From positions 1 to 20,889 of the IMG/VR virus record IMGVR_UViG_3300044645_001328: DNA of 20,889 bases; one strand, 5' to 3'. Shown here piece by piece: positions 3-6,759 of this stretch; position 1 is the stretch's first letter, and every line of letters begins with the position of its first letter. This stretch comes from a virus. The notes beneath the pieces were generated by a model. That model was not told where the DNA came from. It searched no databases and saw only the letters and a program-made list of their open reading frames with translations. The position numbers and the translations under genes were made by a program.

Positions 3-1271
3 TTTTCTCCATATCCGTTGGGTTATCTTATCTTACAAGATACACCATCAAGCAATATTGTTTCTAGAATTAGTCAAGATGGTTTGATCGGTAAGGGTGA
101 AGAAATTGCTTTGGCTTTTACCGCAAAAATAGGCGAATACTTTCAAGAATTGCAAGGATTTTTTATCTACAAAGTAGAACCCTTTGCACCAGATGAACCA
201 CAAGCAAGTCGTCAAAAGATCATATACAAACTTTATTTCTCTTCGCAGATTTTCTTTACAAATGAATTGATTCGTATCAATCGTTATTATGAAGATAAGT
301 TATCAAATATTGTAAAGAGAATTGCTGAAAATCAATTACAAATAAAATTAGAAACTATTGAGGAAACTGCCTTAAAGCAATCGATATTTTTTCCTGTATT
401 GACACCACTTGAATGTATCAACATGTGCGCTTCTCGTAGCACATCTAAAGAAAATAATCATGATGCTAATTATGTCTTTTATGGTGATATTGATCACAAA
501 TATCATTATGTAACTCTTGGTAGATTAATGAAAACCAAACCAGTCATAGGAACATATGATTTTGATGGTATTACTGTTGCAACTCCATTTGGTATGAATT
601 ACATGGGAAGTGGAAATATCGATAAAGGTCCAACAAAATATAATGCATTAAGATATCAGATAAAACCAATTTCTCCAATTCGAAACATGGTAAATGGTAT
701 GTTTTCTTCATCCTTATTGGAATTTGATGTAGTAAAAAGAAAATATAGAAGTTATCACTACGATTATTCTGCCGAATTTCCAAATCAACGCCATCTTGTT
801 GATAGTCCAATTGTAAGCAAAGGTGCAGATTTTATTAATTTATCTTATTTAAATCCTCATGCTTTTCCTTTATATTATTCGACTTCTCAATGGCAGCATG
901 ATGAAAATGAACTTTCAGAATTATCAAATAACTCAGTAAACTCAGGAAGAGATTATATCCAAAAAAGAAGATCTCAAATGCTTCAAGTAAATCAAATGGG
1001 ACTTGAAATAGAATTACCTGGCAATCCAATTCTCAAGATCGGACAGACTGTTTATTTTGGTAGATCTCAATTGGATTTTTCTGGTCAAAACTCAGAAACA
1101 TGGCTAAGAAATCCTTATGTAACTGGAAAGTTTTTAATAACAAGAAAAACCACAATACTAGAAAACAGCAAATCAAACAATACTCTTGGTTTCAATTTAA
1201 AAACAACATTCTCATTAAGAAAAGATTCTGATGTAGGAACACTAAGTATTGGGTCGGAGGATTCTGAATAA
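3..1271 (+). CDS. Baseplate hub protein, gp27-like (5' partial)
   Basis: Likely the hub ring that connects the tail tube to the central spike. The reading frame is open from base 3 with no stop, reading FSPYPLGYLILQ, so the TTG at 18 is only an internal codon and the gene starts outside the window. The visible part (422 codons) has the layout I associate with gp27-like hub proteins: a beta-rich first part with FFIYKVEPFAP followed by a segment ending in SNIVKRIAENQL, then a second domain with TPLECINMCASR and ANYVFYGDIDHKYHYVTLG. It ends with a beta domain around LEIELPGNPILKIGQTVYFG, similar to the low-identity VgrG/gp27 fold. T4 gp27 is 391 residues. The next gene is the gp5 OB-fold protein, its expected binding partner, and the two overlap by one base (TAATG). 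The fold assignment is from remembered family patterns; sequence identity to T4 gp27 is low. Confidence 0.72.
   Translation, partial: FSPYPLGYLILQDTPSSNIVSRISQDGLIGKGEEIALAFTAKIGEYFQELQGFFIYKVEPFAPDEPQASRQKIIYKLYFSSQIFFTNELIRINRYYEDKLSNIVKRIAENQLQIKLETIEETALKQSIFFPVLTPLECINMCASRSTSKENNHDANYVFYGDIDHKYHYVTLGRLMKTKPVIGTYDFDGITVATPFGMNYMGSGNIDKGPTKYNALRYQIKPISPIRNMVNGMFSSSLLEFDVVKRKYRSYHYDYSAEFPNQRHLVDSPIVSKGADFINLSYLNPHAFPLYYSTSQWQHDENELSELSNNSVNSGRDYIQKRRSQMLQVNQMGLEIELPGNPILKIGQTVYFGRSQLDFSGQNSETWLRNPYVTGKFLITRKTTILENSKSNNTLGFNLKTTFSLRKDSDVGTLSIGSEDSE
1256..1260 (+). promoter_or_regulatory. Shine-Dalgarno of the gp5 OB-fold gene
   Basis: GGAGG lies 10 bases before the ATG at 1271, inside the end of the gp27-like gene. 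It is the strongest ribosome-binding site seen in the window and supports the chosen start. The start codon overlaps the preceding stop as TAATG, so the ribosome could either reinitiate or bind anew. Confidence 0.7.
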
Positions 1272-2167
1272 TGTATACTGGAAAAGACTCATTAGTATTT
1301 TGGTTTGGTGTGATAGAAGATCGCTTAGATCCGTTAGAAATTGGCAGATGTCGAGTTCGTATTCTTGGTTTTCATCCTCAATTAAAAAAAGATTTTCCAA
1401 CCAATAAATTACCTTGGGCACAAATAATACAACCAAGTCATTCTGCCTCTTTGAGTGGTAAAGGTATCAGTCCAACAGGATTAGTAGAAGGATCGTGGGT
1501 TGTTGGATTTTTTGTCGATAATGGTTCTGCTCAAATTCCTATTATTATGGGAAGTATCTGTGGAATGAACGAAGAAACAAAAGAGGGAGATAATCCTGGC
1601 GATTGTTTTAGAGATCTAAGAGAAGAAAATGATCTTGCAATTTTTCCTGTAGATGAATTCGAGAAAAAAGAATATCCAAATGGTAAAGAATCTGACGGAG
1701 ATGCTCATGGCGCTCAAATTAAGAATGTATCAAAATCTAAGAATTATCCAAGAGAATTGTATTCTCCCGAATCATCGGGACGCGAACGAGGAACGCCCGA
1801 TCTAAATATTCTAGCAATTGGCGATCTGCAAAGAATAGATAAAACAATTGTAAAAACAAAACGCGATCCTGTTGGTTCTGGACTTCGTGATATTGGTATT
1901 GATGTGGCAGATTGTGATACTCCAAGATTTAATTGTGGTGTGACAAATGAAAGTGGAGTGAATATTGGAACGATCAAAGGATTGGGAATTGGTGTCAATT
2001 CTCAAGAATCATCATCTGTTCCTTCACGAAAAACAAAATACAAGCAATTTAAAGATAAACCAACAAATAATAACGCAATTCAAATCGATTCGTCAAAAAC
2101 AATGAATCTGAAACCAACAATGGTTGATACCGCTGCAACTGTTGATACATCTATAGGATTAGCATAA
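1271..2167 (+). CDS. 5: Baseplate hub gp5 N-terminal OB-fold protein, no lysozyme domain
   Basis: Residues 9-95 match the N-terminal OB-fold of T4 gp5, with GVIEDRLDPLEIGRCRVR (13-30), LPWAQIIQP (47-55), SGKGISPTGLVEGSWV (62-77) and a final IIMGS. In T4 this domain sits on the gp27 trimer and links the spike to the hub. The T4 protein continues into a lysozyme domain. Here, residues 100-298 have no lysozyme-like motif; they are a polar linker containing GTPDLNILAIGD, which resembles the linker in gp5 of T4-like marine phages. The frame stops at 2165-2167, before the beta-helix, which is encoded by the next gene. The product is therefore 298 residues against 575 for T4 gp5. It overlaps its neighbours by one base on each side. 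The OB-fold call is secure; the role of the linker is inferred. Confidence 0.9.
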   Translation: MYTGKDSLVFWFGVIEDRLDPLEIGRCRVRILGFHPQLKKDFPTNKLPWAQIIQPSHSASLSGKGISPTGLVEGSWVVGFFVDNGSAQIPIIMGSICGMNEETKEGDNPGDCFRDLREENDLAIFPVDEFEKKEYPNGKESDGDAHGAQIKNVSKSKNYPRELYSPESSGRERGTPDLNILAIGDLQRIDKTIVKTKRDPVGSGLRDIGIDVADCDTPRFNCGVTNESGVNIGTIKGLGIGVNSQESSSVPSRKTKYKQFKDKPTNNNAIQIDSSKTMNLKPTMVDTAATVDTSIGLA

Positions 2168-4182
2168 TGGCAGGAACACAAGCAAATACAGGACAATGGT
2201 TTGAACCAGAAACCCCTTATGCGACAATTAAGGGTGAACCAATCAAACCAAGAGACAATGCTTCAAAAAGCACGGTTTATCCTTTTAATAAAGTAACAGA
2301 AACAGAATCTGGGCACATTGTAGAATTTGATGATACTCCAGGCGCAGAAAGAATTCACATCTATCACCGATCTGGTTCATTTTTTGAGTTTCATCCAAAC
2401 GGAGATAAAGTAGATAAAATTGTAAGAGATTATTATCTCTCTATTCTTCGTGATGCAAATGTTCACATTGATGGATTTACGAATGTTACTATAGACAAGG
2501 GATTAAAAGTTTATATCAATCGTGACAATTTACCAAACTCTGAAAATTCTTCTGTTAATTTTGATATTCATGTTGGACAAAATGCAAATGTCAATTTATT
2601 TTTAGAAAAGGGAAATTGCAATCTTAAGTTAAAGGATGGAGATGCAAATCTTCAGATTGATAAAGGTGATGTGAATATTCGTCAAGATGATGGTAATTAT
2701 AATCATTTTGTAAATGGTGATTATAATGTCGAATGCACAGGTCATATGCATACTGTTGTTGGTGGTCATAAAGTAGATGAGATTGGTGGTTCCAGAGATG
2801 TAAGAGTCGATGGTGAATTTGATAATCTTCAAGTTACAAATGGATACAAAGAAACTCAGGTTGCGGGGGATCATCGTCTTGAAGTGAAGGGTGGAGTTTA
2901 TGATTTGTTTCATAAAACACATGAAACTAAAATATTGCTTGATCGAATTGTACAAATTGTAGGTGGTAGACAGCAAGCAATTACAGGAGAAGATGTTTTA
3001 TCTGTTGGTGGATCACAAGATAATACAATTACTGGTTCTCGTTCTATGACTATTGGAGGAGATCAAAATACATTAATTGGTGGTTCTACAAAACAAACTA
3101 CAGGTGGTTCTCTTGATGTTTTGGTTGGTGGTTCTTCTCGTCATACCGCATCTAGTTACGATGTAAGCGGTGGAGCAGAAATTAAAATGAGTGCGGGAAG
3201 AATTCATTGGAACGGGCCGCAAGCAGCAAATGCATCGACATCTGGTACTGCTGCATTAGTTTCTAAAAATCCAATTTATGTTCCAGGCCCAGGCGCACAA
3301 TGGGTTCCTTCACAACCAACACACCCAAGAAGTCCATTAGGACAACTTCAATTGGCGTCTGCTCAGTTGACACAACAACTCGGAACTGTATCTGCACTAC
3401 AGCAAATCAATAACGAGAATGCAAACCAAATAGCACAATTGAATGCAAATAATTCGGAACTTTCTGGATTATTGGAAGAAGATACGGGATTTGGGCCAGC
3501 AGTAAAACAAAATGTAAGCGGATCCTTAACATTAGCACAAAATGCAACTTCGTCTTTAAGCAATGTAACCAATCAAGCAAGTGGAGTTGTTTCTTCTGCG
3601 GGAGGAATCACAAGCGGAGCAATTTCTTCAACTCAAGCAGCAACGACAGGATTAAATGGAAACATTCCAGGCTCAAATAGTGGTTCTGTGGGTGGTGGAT
3701 TGTTTGGTGGTGCGACTTCAACTCTTCAATCTGGAAATCAAGATTTGGGTGCATTGGGTGATATTTTTACGGGTGTTGGTTCTGTTTTGGGGGATGTAAT
3801 TGACGCCATTGTGGAAGTTGGGTGTGCAATTGGTGAACTAATTAATGGATTGATTGATGCAGTCGTCAAACCCGTACTTGAAACAATAAACTCTGTTTTT
3901 GCTAAAATTTCAGAAATTCTTGGTGAAATCACGAATGCAATCGGACAAGTATTATCGAAAATTGGCGAAGTAATCAACGGAGTTCTTGGTGCAATAAATG
4001 AAATTATTGGCAAAATAATTGACGCCGCTGGACAATTTATTGGTGGAATTGCATCTGCAATCAATGGTTTATTATCAAACTTATTCGAAGGTTTCAGCGA
4101 TATTGGTTGCGGTGATGGTATTCTTTCTGGACAAGAACCACCATTGGGAACAGAGGCGATTGCGCCAGGAGTCATAACATGA
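2167..4182 (+). CDS. 5: Central tail spike, gp5 C-terminal beta-helix type, with long hydrophobic extension
   Basis: Encodes the needle part of gp5 as a separate 671-residue protein. Residues 37-75 carry the conserved entry segment (YPFNKVTETESGHIVEFDD, then TPGAERIHIYHRSG) typical of gp5/VgrG spikes. Residues 96-328 form the needle, with about 20 octapeptide repeats of the xGGSxxxx type, which build a three-chain beta-helix in T4. The repeats end near AEIKMSAGRIHWNGP, where related spikes also end. A further roughly 310 residues follow: a Gln/Asn-rich, helix-prone stretch (about 391-440), a Ser/Gly/Thr-rich linker (440-530), and a long amphipathic segment rich in Ile, Val, Leu and Gly (531-645) with Cys553 and Cys648 near its ends. 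T4 gp5 lacks such a tail. The start is ATG in TAATG with AGGA 8 bases upstream. The PAAR tip gene follows with a 4-base overlap. The needle call is firm; the role of the extension is unknown. Confidence 0.9.
   Translation: MAGTQANTGQWFEPETPYATIKGEPIKPRDNASKSTVYPFNKVTETESGHIVEFDDTPGAERIHIYHRSGSFFEFHPNGDKVDKIVRDYYLSILRDANVHIDGFTNVTIDKGLKVYINRDNLPNSENSSVNFDIHVGQNANVNLFLEKGNCNLKLKDGDANLQIDKGDVNIRQDDGNYNHFVNGDYNVECTGHMHTVVGGHKVDEIGGSRDVRVDGEFDNLQVTNGYKETQVAGDHRLEVKGGVYDLFHKTHETKILLDRIVQIVGGRQQAITGEDVLSVGGSQDNTITGSRSMTIGGDQNTLIGGSTKQTTGGSLDVLVGGSSRHTASSYDVSGGAEIKMSAGRIHWNGPQAANASTSGTAALVSKNPIYVPGPGAQWVPSQPTHPRSPLGQLQLASAQLTQQLGTVSALQQINNENANQIAQLNANNSELSGLLEEDTGFGPAVKQNVSGSLTLAQNATSSLSNVTNQASGVVSSAGGITSGAISSTQAATTGLNGNIPGSNSGSVGGGLFGGATSTLQSGNQDLGALGDIFTGVGSVLGDVIDAIVEVGCAIGELINGLIDAVVKPVLETINSVFAKISEILGEITNAIGQVLSKIGEVINGVLGAINEIIGKIIDAAGQFIGGIASAINGLLSNLFEGFSDIGCGDGILSGQEPPLGTEAIAPGVIT
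2689..3150 (+). repeat. Octapeptide beta-helix repeats in the spike
   Basis: Residues 175-328 of the spike consist of tandem octads such as VGGSQDNT, ITGSRSMT, IGGDQNTL, IGGSTKQT, TGGSLDVL and VGGSSRHT. About 19-20 units are visible, with one nine-residue unit near VTNGYKETQ and a less Gly-rich stretch around FHKTHETK. At DNA level the repeat shows as recurring GGTGGTTCT. The pattern is the same kind as the VxGxxxxx repeats of T4 gp5 and VgrG needles. Confidence 0.85.
3757..4110 (+). other. Amphipathic hydrophobic segment at the spike C-terminus
   Basis: Codes for spike residues 531-648. The segment has Ile/Leu/Val recurring every three to four residues with Gly, Ala and Asn between them, for example IGELINGLIDAVV, ISEILGEITNAIGQVLSKI and GEVINGVLGAINEIIGKII. 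Few charged residues break the apolar face. It could form amphipathic helices that pack as a coiled bundle or insert in a membrane. No function is known to me for this segment. Confidence 0.65.
4167..4171 (+). promoter_or_regulatory. Shine-Dalgarno of the PAAR gene
   Basis: AGGAG lies 7 bases before the ATG at 4179, inside the last codons of the spike gene. It confirms the ATGA-overlap start, which gives a complete PAAR domain. Confidence 0.65.
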
Positions 4183-4457
4183 GAGTAATACGAAAAGGTA
4201 TAGATTATTCATTAGGACATTGTTTTAATCCTCGTCCTGCTGTGGAAGGAAGTCCTGATGTATTTTGCAATAACATTTCGGTTGTTCGTGCGGGTGATTA
4301 TTATCCTGTTCATAGTTGTGGAAGTAAATCACATGATGGGAGAGCGACAAGTGGTTCTAATGTTTTTGTAAACAACAAACCTGTACATCGTTCTGGAGAT
4401 CAAATTACTTGTGGTGACACGGCTTTCAACGGTTCTTCTGATGTTTTTGTAAATTAA
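4179..4457 (+). CDS. PAAR-domain spike tip protein, gp5.4-like
   Basis: A 92-residue PAAR protein, the metal-bound conical cap that sharpens the tip of phage and type VI secretion spikes. It has the double PAAR pattern: GHCFNPRP near the start, EGSPDVFCNNISVVRAGD (24-40), then SNVFVNNKPVHRSGD (60-74) and GSSDVFVN at the end. Likely metal ligands by family analogy are His14, His45, His70 and Cys78. Extra cysteines (15, 30, 47) are present. The length matches T4 gp5.4 (97 residues), with no added effector domain. It overlaps the spike gene by 4 bases, as expected for a protein that binds the end of the beta-helix. In this phage it must do so despite the spike's long C-terminal extension. The gene ends directly before the putative late promoter. 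Confidence 0.93.
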   Translation: MRVIRKGIDYSLGHCFNPRPAVEGSPDVFCNNISVVRAGDYYPVHSCGSKSHDGRATSGSNVFVNNKPVHRSGDQITCGDTAFNGSSDVFVN

Positions 4458-4472: not shown

Positions 4473-4865
4473 ATGGCAAAAGAAAAAATTTACAAGGATA
4501 TAGACTTAAATTTTGAACCAAATCCTTTAAGTGGGGATGTGGATAGTCTTATTGGCGTAAATGCCATTAAACAATCCTTAAAGAATATTGTTCTTTATAA
4601 TATTTTTGAAAAACCATATTCATCGGAATTTGATGTAGGATTGCGTAATTTGCTATTTGAAAATAAAGGACACGGTTTTCAAAACTTCCTGAGAAAACGA
4701 GTAAGAATTCTCATTGAAGCATATGAACCTAGAGTAATTTTAAATGATGTTTTGGTGAAGTTTATATCAGAACGAAATAGTATGCAGATATCTGTGTTTT
4801 ATACAGTCAAAGAAACCCAAACCCCAGAATCATTAGAATTCTTTTTAGGTAAGTACAATGGATAA
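4473..4865 (+). CDS. 25: Baseplate wedge protein gp25
   Basis: A 130-residue member of the GPW/gp25 family (T4 gp25 has 132), found in the baseplates of all contractile injection systems (TssE in type VI secretion). It helps start sheath assembly at the wedge core together with gp6, gp7 and gp53. The signature features are present: the N-terminal YKDIDLNFEPNPLSGDV, the central AIKQSLKNIVLYNIFEKPY, and the family's EPR motif as YEPRV at residues 84-88. Unlike T4, where gene 25 lies in another cluster, it sits here beside gp6. No Shine-Dalgarno is visible before the ATG; the preceding bases are an AT-rich gap holding a candidate late promoter. It overlaps gp6 by 8 bases. Confidence 0.95.
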   Translation: MAKEKIYKDIDLNFEPNPLSGDVDSLIGVNAIKQSLKNIVLYNIFEKPYSSEFDVGLRNLLFENKGHGFQNFLRKRVRILIEAYEPRVILNDVLVKFISERNSMQISVFYTVKETQTPESLEFFLGKYNG

Positions 4866-6759
4866 TAATAATTTCTTGAACAACGCTGGTTTGAATTTTT
4901 ATGATATTAAGTATAATTTTATTAATTATTTAAAATCAAAACCAGAATTTACCGACTACGATTTTCAAGGCTCAAATCTGAGCGTCTTGTTGGATATCTT
5001 ATCATATAACACCTCTCAACAAGGTTTTTATAATGCAATGGTTGCAAATGAAATGTTTATCGAAAGAGCAACCAAGAGATCCTCAATTGTATCTTTGGCA
5101 AAAACAATGGGATATACGCCAAATACAAAGAAAGCATCAAGAGCAAAGATTTTTCTTACCGTTGGTGCAGCAGATGTTCCTGCATCACGAATATTAGAAA
5201 AAGGTTCTTTATTTACAGGAACAATAGAAAATCAAGAGTATACATTTACAAATATAGAATCTTTTGCATTTTATCCTTATACCTTTGATGCCAATACAGA
5301 TCCTGCTAATTCTGAAAATGGACAAATTTTGAGTTATGCTTGTGGGCCATTTGAAATAAAACAAGGTGTTCTAAACACGATTAGTTATAATGTTCAAGAA
5401 TCAAATCAGGAATTTTTGGTTACAGACAAGAATACGGATAAAGATTCCATTCGTGTCTTTGTATTAAATTCCATCACCGATACAACAGGATTGAATATTC
5501 CTTGGACAGTTTCTACAGATATCACTTTATTGGATGAAAATACCAGAGCATTTTTTCTAGAAGAAAATAGTTATGGACAATTGGTTTTGACATTTGGTGA
5601 TGGAGTTCTTGGTAAAAAATTAGAAATTGGAAATGTTGTTATTATTGAATATTTAAGTACATTTGGTTCTGTTGCAAACGGTATAGGAAGAAGTGATACC
5701 GCAACAAAAAGATCTTTTACATTTGATTCAGATAATATCTTTACCGTGTTTACAATCGAACCATCCAATTCGGGTGCGGATCGTGAAACATCTGGTTCCA
5801 TTAAGAGAAATGCTGTTAGAAATTTGACATCAAAGGGAAGAGCAGTAACGATAAAGGACTACGAAGGATTGGTGATTGGTTCTTTCAATGATGGTGCTGC
5901 TGTTCGTTGTTGGGGCGGAGAAGAAAACGATCCGCCATATTATGGTAAGGTATTCATGTCTGTTCGTCCTGTTGGACAGACCATTTTGACATCAGAAGAT
6001 AAAACAAATCTTGTCAACAATATTTTAAAGGAAAAAAATATTGTCGGAATGGATGTGGTAATTGTTGATCCAGAGGTATTGTATATTAATCCTGTGGTTG
6101 AGATTTTCTACGAAAAAGCATTGACAAAAGATTCCGAATCAACTTTGATGAACAGAATTAAAAATTCATTGGTTGTTTATTTTAGACGCAACTTAGTGGA
6201 ATTTGGCGACTCCATATTTTCCACGGATGTCGAGAATGATATTATGGGTATTACACCAGCATTCAAGAGTGTTGATGTTAATATGACTATCGAAAGAAGA
6301 ATTGTTCCGACACTGGGAGTTTCGGAAAGAACAACAATAGATTTTCAAAATGAATTGTACCACCCCTATGATGGTTATCAATCAATTATCAAGACAAACA
6401 AGTTTCAAATTTCTCAAAACTCAGATTACCATTACATCGAAGACGATGGAAATGGAAAATTGCTATTAAAAAAAATCAAGAACGGTGTGGTTTCTACTGT
6501 AAATAGTAATTATGGAACAATTGATTATACCACAGGCAAATTAATTATAACCGCATTAAAAGTATATACAATTGAAAACAACTCAAGTTATGTTTATATT
6601 AGAGCAGAACCAAAGACAAATAATATATTTACAAAAAGAAATTCTGTTTTGAGTTATGATTTCTTAACAGACTCGGCTCTACAAATCAACTTAAATCAAG
6701 TAAAAACTCAACAAGTAATCGGTGGTTCTGGAACAGTAATTACAAGGCCTAACTTCTAA
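4858..6759 (+). CDS. 6: Baseplate wedge protein gp6 (baseplate J family)
   Basis: A 633-residue homologue of T4 gp6 (660), the protein whose dimers join wedges into the inner baseplate ring around the hub. The N-terminus is strongly conserved: FYDIKYNFINYLKSKPEF, then LSVLLDILSYNTSQQGFYNA, ATKRSSIVSLAKTMGYTP (about residues 14-90). The baseplate-J core follows, with QLVLTFGDGVLGKKLEIG near 240 and FNDGAAVRCWGGEENDPPYYGKVF from about 343, split by the usual short loop. The last 130 residues are beta-rich with YHYIEDDGNGKLLLKK, as in gp6 of related phages. The start overlaps the end of gp25 by 8 bases with a weak AGG 8 bases upstream. The end is joined to the next gene by TAATG. Confidence 0.95.
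   Translation: MDNNNFLNNAGLNFYDIKYNFINYLKSKPEFTDYDFQGSNLSVLLDILSYNTSQQGFYNAMVANEMFIERATKRSSIVSLAKTMGYTPNTKKASRAKIFLTVGAADVPASRILEKGSLFTGTIENQEYTFTNIESFAFYPYTFDANTDPANSENGQILSYACGPFEIKQGVLNTISYNVQESNQEFLVTDKNTDKDSIRVFVLNSITDTTGLNIPWTVSTDITLLDENTRAFFLEENSYGQLVLTFGDGVLGKKLEIGNVVIIEYLSTFGSVANGIGRSDTATKRSFTFDSDNIFTVFTIEPSNSGADRETSGSIKRNAVRNLTSKGRAVTIKDYEGLVIGSFNDGAAVRCWGGEENDPPYYGKVFMSVRPVGQTILTSEDKTNLVNNILKEKNIVGMDVVIVDPEVLYINPVVEIFYEKALTKDSESTLMNRIKNSLVVYFRRNLVEFGDSIFSTDVENDIMGITPAFKSVDVNMTIERRIVPTLGVSERTTIDFQNELYHPYDGYQSIIKTNKFQISQNSDYHYIEDDGNGKLLLKKIKNGVVSTVNSNYGTIDYTTGKLIITALKVYTIENNSSYVYIRAEPKTNNIFTKRNSVLSYDFLTDSALQINLNQVKTQQVIGGSGTVITRPNF

Follow-up and report, generated by a model that had tools for sequence, protein, structure and literature searches.

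A conserved amphipathic hendecad repeat at the C-terminal end of a T4 gp5-type phage spike

The spike of phage T4 is built from gp5, a 575-residue chain whose C-terminal end binds gp5.4, and the inner-membrane step of T4 is stated as unknown (PMC7600766). A T4 tip fragment (gp5 residues 484-575 with gp5.4), which carries no extension of the kind described below, did not bind liposomes and bound spheroplasts weakly (PMC7600766). Here we analysed a 20,889-nucleotide virus sequence (IMG/VR record IMGVR_UViG_3300044645_001328, positions 1 to 20,889; its full length is called the window), in which the open reading frame (ORF) at 2167-4182 encodes, judged from its sequence, a T4 gp5-type spike that is homologous to gp5 in the beta-helix part. 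Spike residues 33-208 align with T4 gp5 382-556 (E 3.7e-17), Gp5_trimer_C matches residues 250-324 (35.3 bits, cut-off 30.9), and a PAAR gene lies directly downstream, in support of the initial annotation of this DNA, which had named a spike with a beta-helix and a PAAR protein. In contrast to T4 gp5, the OB domain is not part of the spike chain and is encoded by a separate ORF (1271-2167), a lysozyme domain was found in neither ORF with Pfam, the beta-helix is longer and the chain continues for ~325 residues past the tip. A literature search by title and the start of the abstract, with subscription journals mostly outside it, found no gp5-type spike with a hydrophobic helical C-terminal extension.

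The spike extension and its hendecad repeat

The beta-helix ends at the motif 'IHWNGP' at residue 346, which gives the extension its length. It had initially been placed at 3244-4182 (residues 360-671 of the 671-residue ORF) and estimated at ~310 residues; it is real, slightly longer than that, and conserved in relatives. The chain is composed of the following parts, all on the plus strand:

2167..3201, plus strand: residues 1-345, gp5C-type triple beta-helix part (T4 gp5 match; Gp5_trimer_C 1.4e-8; AlphaFold blocks)
3202..3333, plus strand: residues 346-389, tip motif 'IHxNGP...YVPG..W...SPL' joining beta-helix and extension (alignments A1 and A3)
3334..3657, plus strand: residues 390-497, two predicted helices, fast evolving (both low-confidence models; pairwise identity)
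3658..3741, plus strand: residues 498-525, Ser/Gly/Thr-rich linker (sequence; length-variable in alignment A1)
3742..4104, plus strand: residues 526-646, 11 consecutive amphipathic hendecad units (moment, period, recurrence)
3823..3825, plus strand: codon of the conserved Cys553, near the repeat start (15/15 in A3; 16/16 repeat-bearing spikes)
4108..4110, plus strand: codon of the conserved Cys648, just after the repeat (15/15 in A3; 16/16 repeat-bearing spikes)

For residues 544-640, the hydrophobic moment is highest at 98 degrees, equal to 11/3 residues per turn, and none of 2000 composition-preserving shuffles matched the moment at this angle. Hydropathy variance of the hydrophobic segment is 6.08 at period 11 versus 0.35 at period 7, and residues 526-646 divide into eleven gapless 11-residue units. 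The register composition was counted over ten units (residues 537-646) in 11 close sequences, giving 110 cells per position. Position a holds Ile, Leu or Val in 110 of 110 cells, and positions d, e and h are 81-91% Ile, Leu, Val, Phe or Met with zero charged residues; position k reaches 67% of the same five residues, positions b, f and g are 51-70% Gly, Ala or Ser, and most charges fall on c and j (51% and 72% charged). The helix faces are accordingly one broad apolar face (five of every eleven positions of the Ile/Leu/Val type), a small-residue flank and a narrow polar edge. A repeat of 11 residues with apolar a, d, e and h is the pattern of a predicted hendecad coiled coil, and the core of soluble hendecad coiled coils likewise lies at these four positions. 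The amphipathic character proposed initially was thus upheld by moment and register, and what had been described as a three-four spacing is periodic in a stricter way, as a hendecad.

The initial annotation had listed a Gln/Asn-rich helix, a Ser/Gly/Thr linker and a segment dominated by Ile, Leu, Val, Gly and Ala. This order stands, with the Gln/Asn-rich helix-prone stretch at residues 390-440, except that residues 444-497, then counted as linker, are a second predicted helix. Cys553 and Cys648, correctly placed near the segment ends, are the only cysteines of the extension and flank the repeat, 88-95 residues apart, in all 16 repeat-bearing spikes described below. AlphaFold models were obtained as monomers for the extension alone (15 sequences, mean pLDDT 38.7) and for the whole spike (19 sequences, mean pLDDT 47.9; block means 70-87 at residues 131-190 and 261-330). 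Both low-confidence models place helices at ~390-437, at 444-497 and over most of 528-642, with pLDDT <50 in the hydrophobic segment, and the last helical stretch breaks at 600-606 in one model and at 585-588 in the other. Given this low confidence, we make no claim on the tertiary arrangement of the extension.

A confident compact fold in a known soluble family, which would speak against a membrane-directed segment, did not emerge: the window extension matches no Pfam family at the curated cut-off (best DUF7217 1.5e-5 and pAdhesive_17 2.4e-5), but one relative, L025, passes that of DUF7217 with 37.9 bits. The cut-off of this family without known function (PF23854) is 29 bits, and the window spike scores 22.8 and its extension 25.3. 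With scores summed over the pieces of a frame, 2 of 15 records exceed the cut-off, the frame of relative L022 among them; no literature on DUF7217 was found. For the hydrophobic segment, no solved relative was detected by sequence (best E 0.42).

Conservation of the repeat and the end of the beta-helix

A first scan of viral contigs returned 14 loci, namely twelve at 60-67% identity, one fragment at 100% (residues 1-268 only) and one short match at 38%. With wider scans for distant relatives, one of which kept the best 80 of 272, 160 loci were collected, of which 88 remained after removal of the 3'-cut ones and of those >90% alike; they are a sample, not a census. The hendecad repeat is present in 16 of these 88 non-redundant spikes, including the window's own (L001). 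In these 16, the moment over 66 residues is 0.41-0.55 with a mean hydrophobicity of 0.24-0.46, and the moment of the other 72 is at most 0.34. Among ORFs of at least 150 residues in the window and 11 pieces of five contigs, only the spikes have a strongest moment window of at least 0.40 with mean hydrophobicity >0.2. The 16 consist of the window with its close group (60-67%) and a second group, 36-38% identical to the window. On a tree of 63 of the 88 spikes the repeat label needs two changes; a single origin is compatible with the starred tree branches, yet occurs in 0 of 200 bootstrap trees.

The mean pairwise identity within the close group is 0.86 for residues 1-240, 0.70 for 241-345 and 0.79 for 526-660, and drops to 0.59 for 390-440 and 0.56 for the helix and linker at 441-525. 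The repeat has dN 0.02-0.05 with dS >1 in six of the seven pairs listed (the seventh, L002/L003, is almost unchanged), similar to the first beta-helix part (dN 0.00-0.06). For the helix and linker ahead of the repeat, five of all seven pairs give dN 0.16-0.32. As dS approaches saturation in many cases, the usable result is the contrast between regions. The repeat is about as constrained as the beta-helix. Outside the viral contigs, none of 1892 matching records of named phages covers 80% of the spike, none of 75 covers 80% of residues 390-671, and no named phage matches the extensions of relatives L025 and L097. One single-protein scan of genome contigs, which reaches close relatives only, gave 206 pattern matches to the extension in cellular sequences, none of them confirmed.

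The same end of the chain bears other domains in other relatives, which were searched for in the 88 spikes with hidden Markov models (HMMs) built from the C-terminal domains of two relatives. A domain resembling M15 peptidases follows the beta-helix in 29 spikes, 17 of which also have a GH19-like domain before it; in one further spike, the domain following the beta-helix is GH19-like. Of the 72 repeat-less spikes, 30 thus carry a hydrolase domain and 42 none or something unassigned, and neither HMM detected a hydrolase domain in any of the 16 repeat-bearing spikes. PHROGs names these hydrolase-like domains endolysins (phrog_894, phrog_181); Pfam support is clear for the GH19 type (2e-7 for L050) and weak for the peptidase type (0.0097 for L056; 0.043 and 0.072 for Methylophilales phage Melnitz). 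Since repeat and hydrolases share a position and were never found together, the spike end after the beta-helix has the appearance of a C-terminal site for cargo, which in the window is an amphipathic helix. In type VI secretion systems (T6SS), some VgrG C-terminal extensions recruit effectors, and in some VgrG proteins the end is an exchangeable cargo site.

Further arrangements were seen at this end of related hub proteins. Seven spikes (L027-L031, L035 and L036) share ~60% identity with the window spike over residues ~5-230 to 255 of the latter, but have neither the repeat nor a downstream PAAR gene and end instead in a short tail of the type 'CPPxKWxPT..K'; relatives have thus exchanged the tip region. 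In Melnitz (L089, 4586-7629), the OB half of a split gp5 carries a VanY-like domain after OB (1.1e-4, under the cut-off) and the beta-helix half a phrog_894 endolysin-like domain after the beta-helix (8.6e-14), both halves thus carrying a peptidase-like domain. At L053:3658-7701, a fused hub protein of 1348 residues is endolysin-like (phrog_894) at its C-terminus, and a long stretch rich in Gly and Leu separates its OB part from the beta-helix.

Of the 14 repeat-bearing spikes that are followed by more than 400 bases of sequence, 13 have a PAAR gene within 1.2 kb downstream, compared with 24 of 30 spikes that bear a hydrolase and 12 of 41 among the others (Fisher p 3e-7 when both kinds of cargo are set against the others, 7e-5 for the repeat alone); these are related spikes and hence not independent counts, and a few contigs stop short of 1.2 kb. 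The exception among the repeat-bearing spikes is L021 with its near copy L026, where no PAAR match was obtained. A gene of ~220 residues (phrog_30125) lies between the spike and a gp25-sized gene at L021:2630-3295 and at L037:7273-7929, both without PAAR, and the L037 copy starts with a hydrophobic stretch; this gene is possibly a functional substitute for PAAR.

In the window, which by its gene content is part of a T4-like phage baseplate gene cluster, the spike is surrounded as follows:

3..1271, plus strand: gp27-like hub gene, 5' end cut by the window (phrog_350 tail protein 6.2e-39)
1271..2167, plus strand: separate gp5 OB-domain gene (Gp5_OB 6.9e-16, the sole Pfam family at E<=1)
2167..4182, plus strand: spike ORF, 671 residues (gp5-type match)
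4179..4457, plus strand: PAAR tip protein (PF05488 3.2e-9; phrog_281 1.7e-21), its start codon overlapping the spike stop codon
4473..4865, plus strand: gp25 baseplate wedge (PF04965 1.7e-7)
4858..6759, plus strand: gp6 baseplate wedge (phrog_219 8.1e-133)

Ranked by gp6, the named phages at the top are Melnitz (32.6%) and Pelagibacter phage HTVC008M (32.5%). Beyond its OB domain, the OB gene gave neither a lysozyme nor another hydrolase domain with Pfam or PHROG; the PHROG families called 'tail lysozyme' hit it within residues 1-153 only, and no PHROG family reaches E<=0.001 for residues 111-298 (window 1601-2164, the ~190 residues that follow the OB domain). The PHROG scan, which covered eight window ORFs, revealed hydrolase domains in none of them, nor did the OB genes of five repeat-bearing relatives (L004, L012, L022, L024 and L025) yield any hydrolase. 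A tail-associated cell-wall enzyme, if there is any, would hence lie outside the scanned ORFs. The family phrog_971, named endolysin, does match the window spike, but on the hydrophobic segment itself (1.6e-5).

Possible membrane engagement and its rivals

Among the mechanisms considered, membrane engagement by an amphipathic hendecad helix in the cargo place of a T4 gp5C-type spike appears to be the best, and we favour it tentatively, at somewhat below even confidence. A gp5C-type trimer would bear this helix at its C-terminal cargo position in place of a cell-wall enzyme. As the chain of the T4 spike extends from baseplate to tip, the extension would be delivered at the piercing end beside PAAR. 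In the virion, the three extensions may leave the tip beside PAAR and be folded back or bundled, with their hydrophobic faces buried mutually; sheath contraction would push the spike through the outer membrane and the bundle would be freed in the periplasm, where the Cys pair might, as a speculation, form a disulfide under oxidising conditions. The freed hydrophobic faces could then bind the inner membrane, anchor the tube end and destabilise the bilayer where the DNA channel will open, which would make the helix the equivalent of the enzyme cargo of relatives, for the next barrier. That three hendecad helices per spike also insert in the inner membrane and seed the DNA channel, which would give the tip the role proposed for the tape measure protein of long non-contractile tails, we consider unlikely.

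The initial annotation had suggested a cargo that inserts in the inner membrane to guide DNA or, alternatively, a coiled bundle folded back along the needle. The place equivalent to that of the hydrolases fits a cargo at the piercing point, but no strong transmembrane window is present: the segment is clearly amphipathic and only marginally transmembrane, with a Kyte-Doolittle 19-residue maximum of 1.68 and a best octanol sum of -1.54 in the window protein. A classical transmembrane domain was dropped as a simple reading, given only marginal windows on the octanol scale. Membrane contact is favoured by the broad Ile/Leu/Val face and by a rough estimate on the Wimley-White interfacial scale, which gives -26 kcal/mol for a folded 110-mer with a folding gain of -0.4 kcal/mol and +18 without this gain.

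Several observations weigh against membrane engagement. In the window protein, the octanol scale gives a marginally favourable value for residues ~622-640 alone; the best 19-residue octanol window past residue 380 is weaker than -1 or unfavourable in 10 of the 16 repeat-bearing spikes, and falls outside the repeat in three of the other six. The net charge of the window segment is -9, which is unusual for binding to anionic membranes, although that of several close relatives is close to 0. Part of the second clade is more highly charged on the polar face, arguing against a spanning helix, and charges occupy 40% of the outside positions in two of the more distant spikes, a feature of soluble coiled coils. 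A glycine-zipper reading as in Tde1 was ruled out and lends no argument, since GxxxG pairs are not enriched in the segment (3 observed, 2.1 expected, p 0.36). Moreover, the membrane-anchored chaperone PpiD is a binding partner of the T4 tip (PMC7600766), and a spike may therefore not need a helix of its own. A study that reported tape measure repeats of 11 or 18 residues, and tested the hydrophobic regions of its tape measure protein as possible membrane parts, concluded that membrane insertion of these regions 'seems less likely', the second being deletable with little effect (PMC5099701).

The strongest rival, which we regard as possible but less probable than membrane engagement, is a soluble module, namely a hendecad coiled coil or bundle whose chains pack together or fold along the beta-helix and never touch a membrane; it would cap the tip or occupy the room that the lysozyme domains take up around the T4 spike. 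The uncharged hydrophobic positions a, d, e and h fit it, as do the weak transmembrane scores, the more charged outside of the two distant spikes and the split gp5, in which the lysozyme space would be empty, as neither the OB gene of the window nor those of five relatives gave a hydrolase match. Usual soluble coiled coils have a narrower apolar face and less glycine, but here k is hydrophobic too and much of the rest is Gly, Ala or Ser, with glycine at 14% in the window; the failure to detect a solved relative also counts against a soluble module. Membrane engagement and the soluble bundle predict opposite outcomes in a liposome assay. A conserved amphipathic helix at the spike tip, beside relatives with an enzyme or nothing recognisable there, offers a ready comparison for such liposome binding.

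We think it rather improbable that the extension helices serve as a loading platform, which recruits or carries a protein encoded elsewhere, such as a cell-wall hydrolase or an effector, with the hydrophobic face as docking surface. The extension does sit where relatives have a hydrolase in cis, and the scanned window ORFs contain none; however, between the spike and gp25/gp6 there is no extra conserved gene but PAAR in the window's close group, and an amphipathic repeat of 121 residues is long for a docking site.

The segment is hit by the profiles of many tape measure families (phrog_1535 1.3e-7; phrog_1272 5.5e-16 for L025), and the tape measure protein of Microbacterium phage Kauala, the sole one examined, matches it in tblastn (2e-5) and has a hydrophobic stretch of >300 residues with a phase of 97-100 degrees. 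Shuffles that keep the register score nearly as high against the Kauala protein (mean 117 versus 147 for the real segment; 5 of 300 as high or higher), for which reason we keep tape measure homology as a resemblance only. The same shuffles never reached the real score against the homologous spikes L021, L025 and L012 (0 of 300 each), and against T4 gp29 there was no excess (168 of 300 as high). As regards the idea that the repeat could stand in for a membrane segment lacking from this phage's tape measure protein, the T4 gp29 family had no match in 12 records. The segment thus resembles tape measure repeats in design, mostly via shared periodicity, and common descent is putative.

The segment matches 333 named-phage records; the 45 listed comprise 21 tape measure proteins, 21 Felix O1-type proteins (assigned by phage name and match range; annotated hypothetical or putative membrane protein) and three others, one of them annotated endolysin. 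The Felix O1-type product was seen at L179:4593-5390 and L180:5656-6390, as a protein of 244-265 residues with a similar hydrophobic stretch, in one case annotated putative membrane protein. A relation to it was rejected in favour of non-specific similarity, both opened records placing the product in a tRNA cluster. Hub families to which PHROGs gives the name 'tail lysozyme' match the OB and beta-helix parts; two of them, phrog_694 and phrog_1922, match the hydrophobic segment as well. Window 3742-4104 matches positions 275-382 of phrog_694, a T4-type hub family (8.1e-6), and these positions precede the beta-helix part of the family. Other hub proteins may therefore have similar repeats at other places. 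That a hydrophobic tape measure part was fused to the spike with its function kept is very improbable, because despite the profile and Kauala matches the register explains most of the score and nearly half of the listed matches are to the Felix O1-type protein.

Comparison with known systems

The spike of this group of uncultured T4-like phages is a testable candidate for how a T4-type spike engages the inner membrane, and the gp5-type beta-helix end is suggested as an exchangeable cargo site in T4-like phages. Melnitz and its IMG/VR relatives share with the window the split gp5, an extension after the beta-helix and then PAAR; they differ in that their extension matches the phrog_894 endolysin family and not a hydrophobic hendecad.

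The tape measure protein sits inside the tail tube, and the window segment is the C-terminus of a gp5-type spike, not an independent long gene setting tail length. The tape measure proteins of siphophages (Kauala, and TP901-1 in PMC5099701) likewise have a long hydrophobic stretch with an 11-residue period, but are another protein, and their similarity to the segment is mostly explained by register. As with the T6SS prePAAR/TMD effectors (PMC7773334) and Tde1 (PMC10240207), which bring hydrophobic helices on a VgrG/PAAR spike into the target envelope, hydrophobic helices would here be carried at a PAAR-tipped spike. In those systems, the helices are parts of effectors that have transmembrane domains or glycine zippers, whereas in the window the helices, not clearly transmembrane and without GxxxG enrichment, are part of the spike chain itself.

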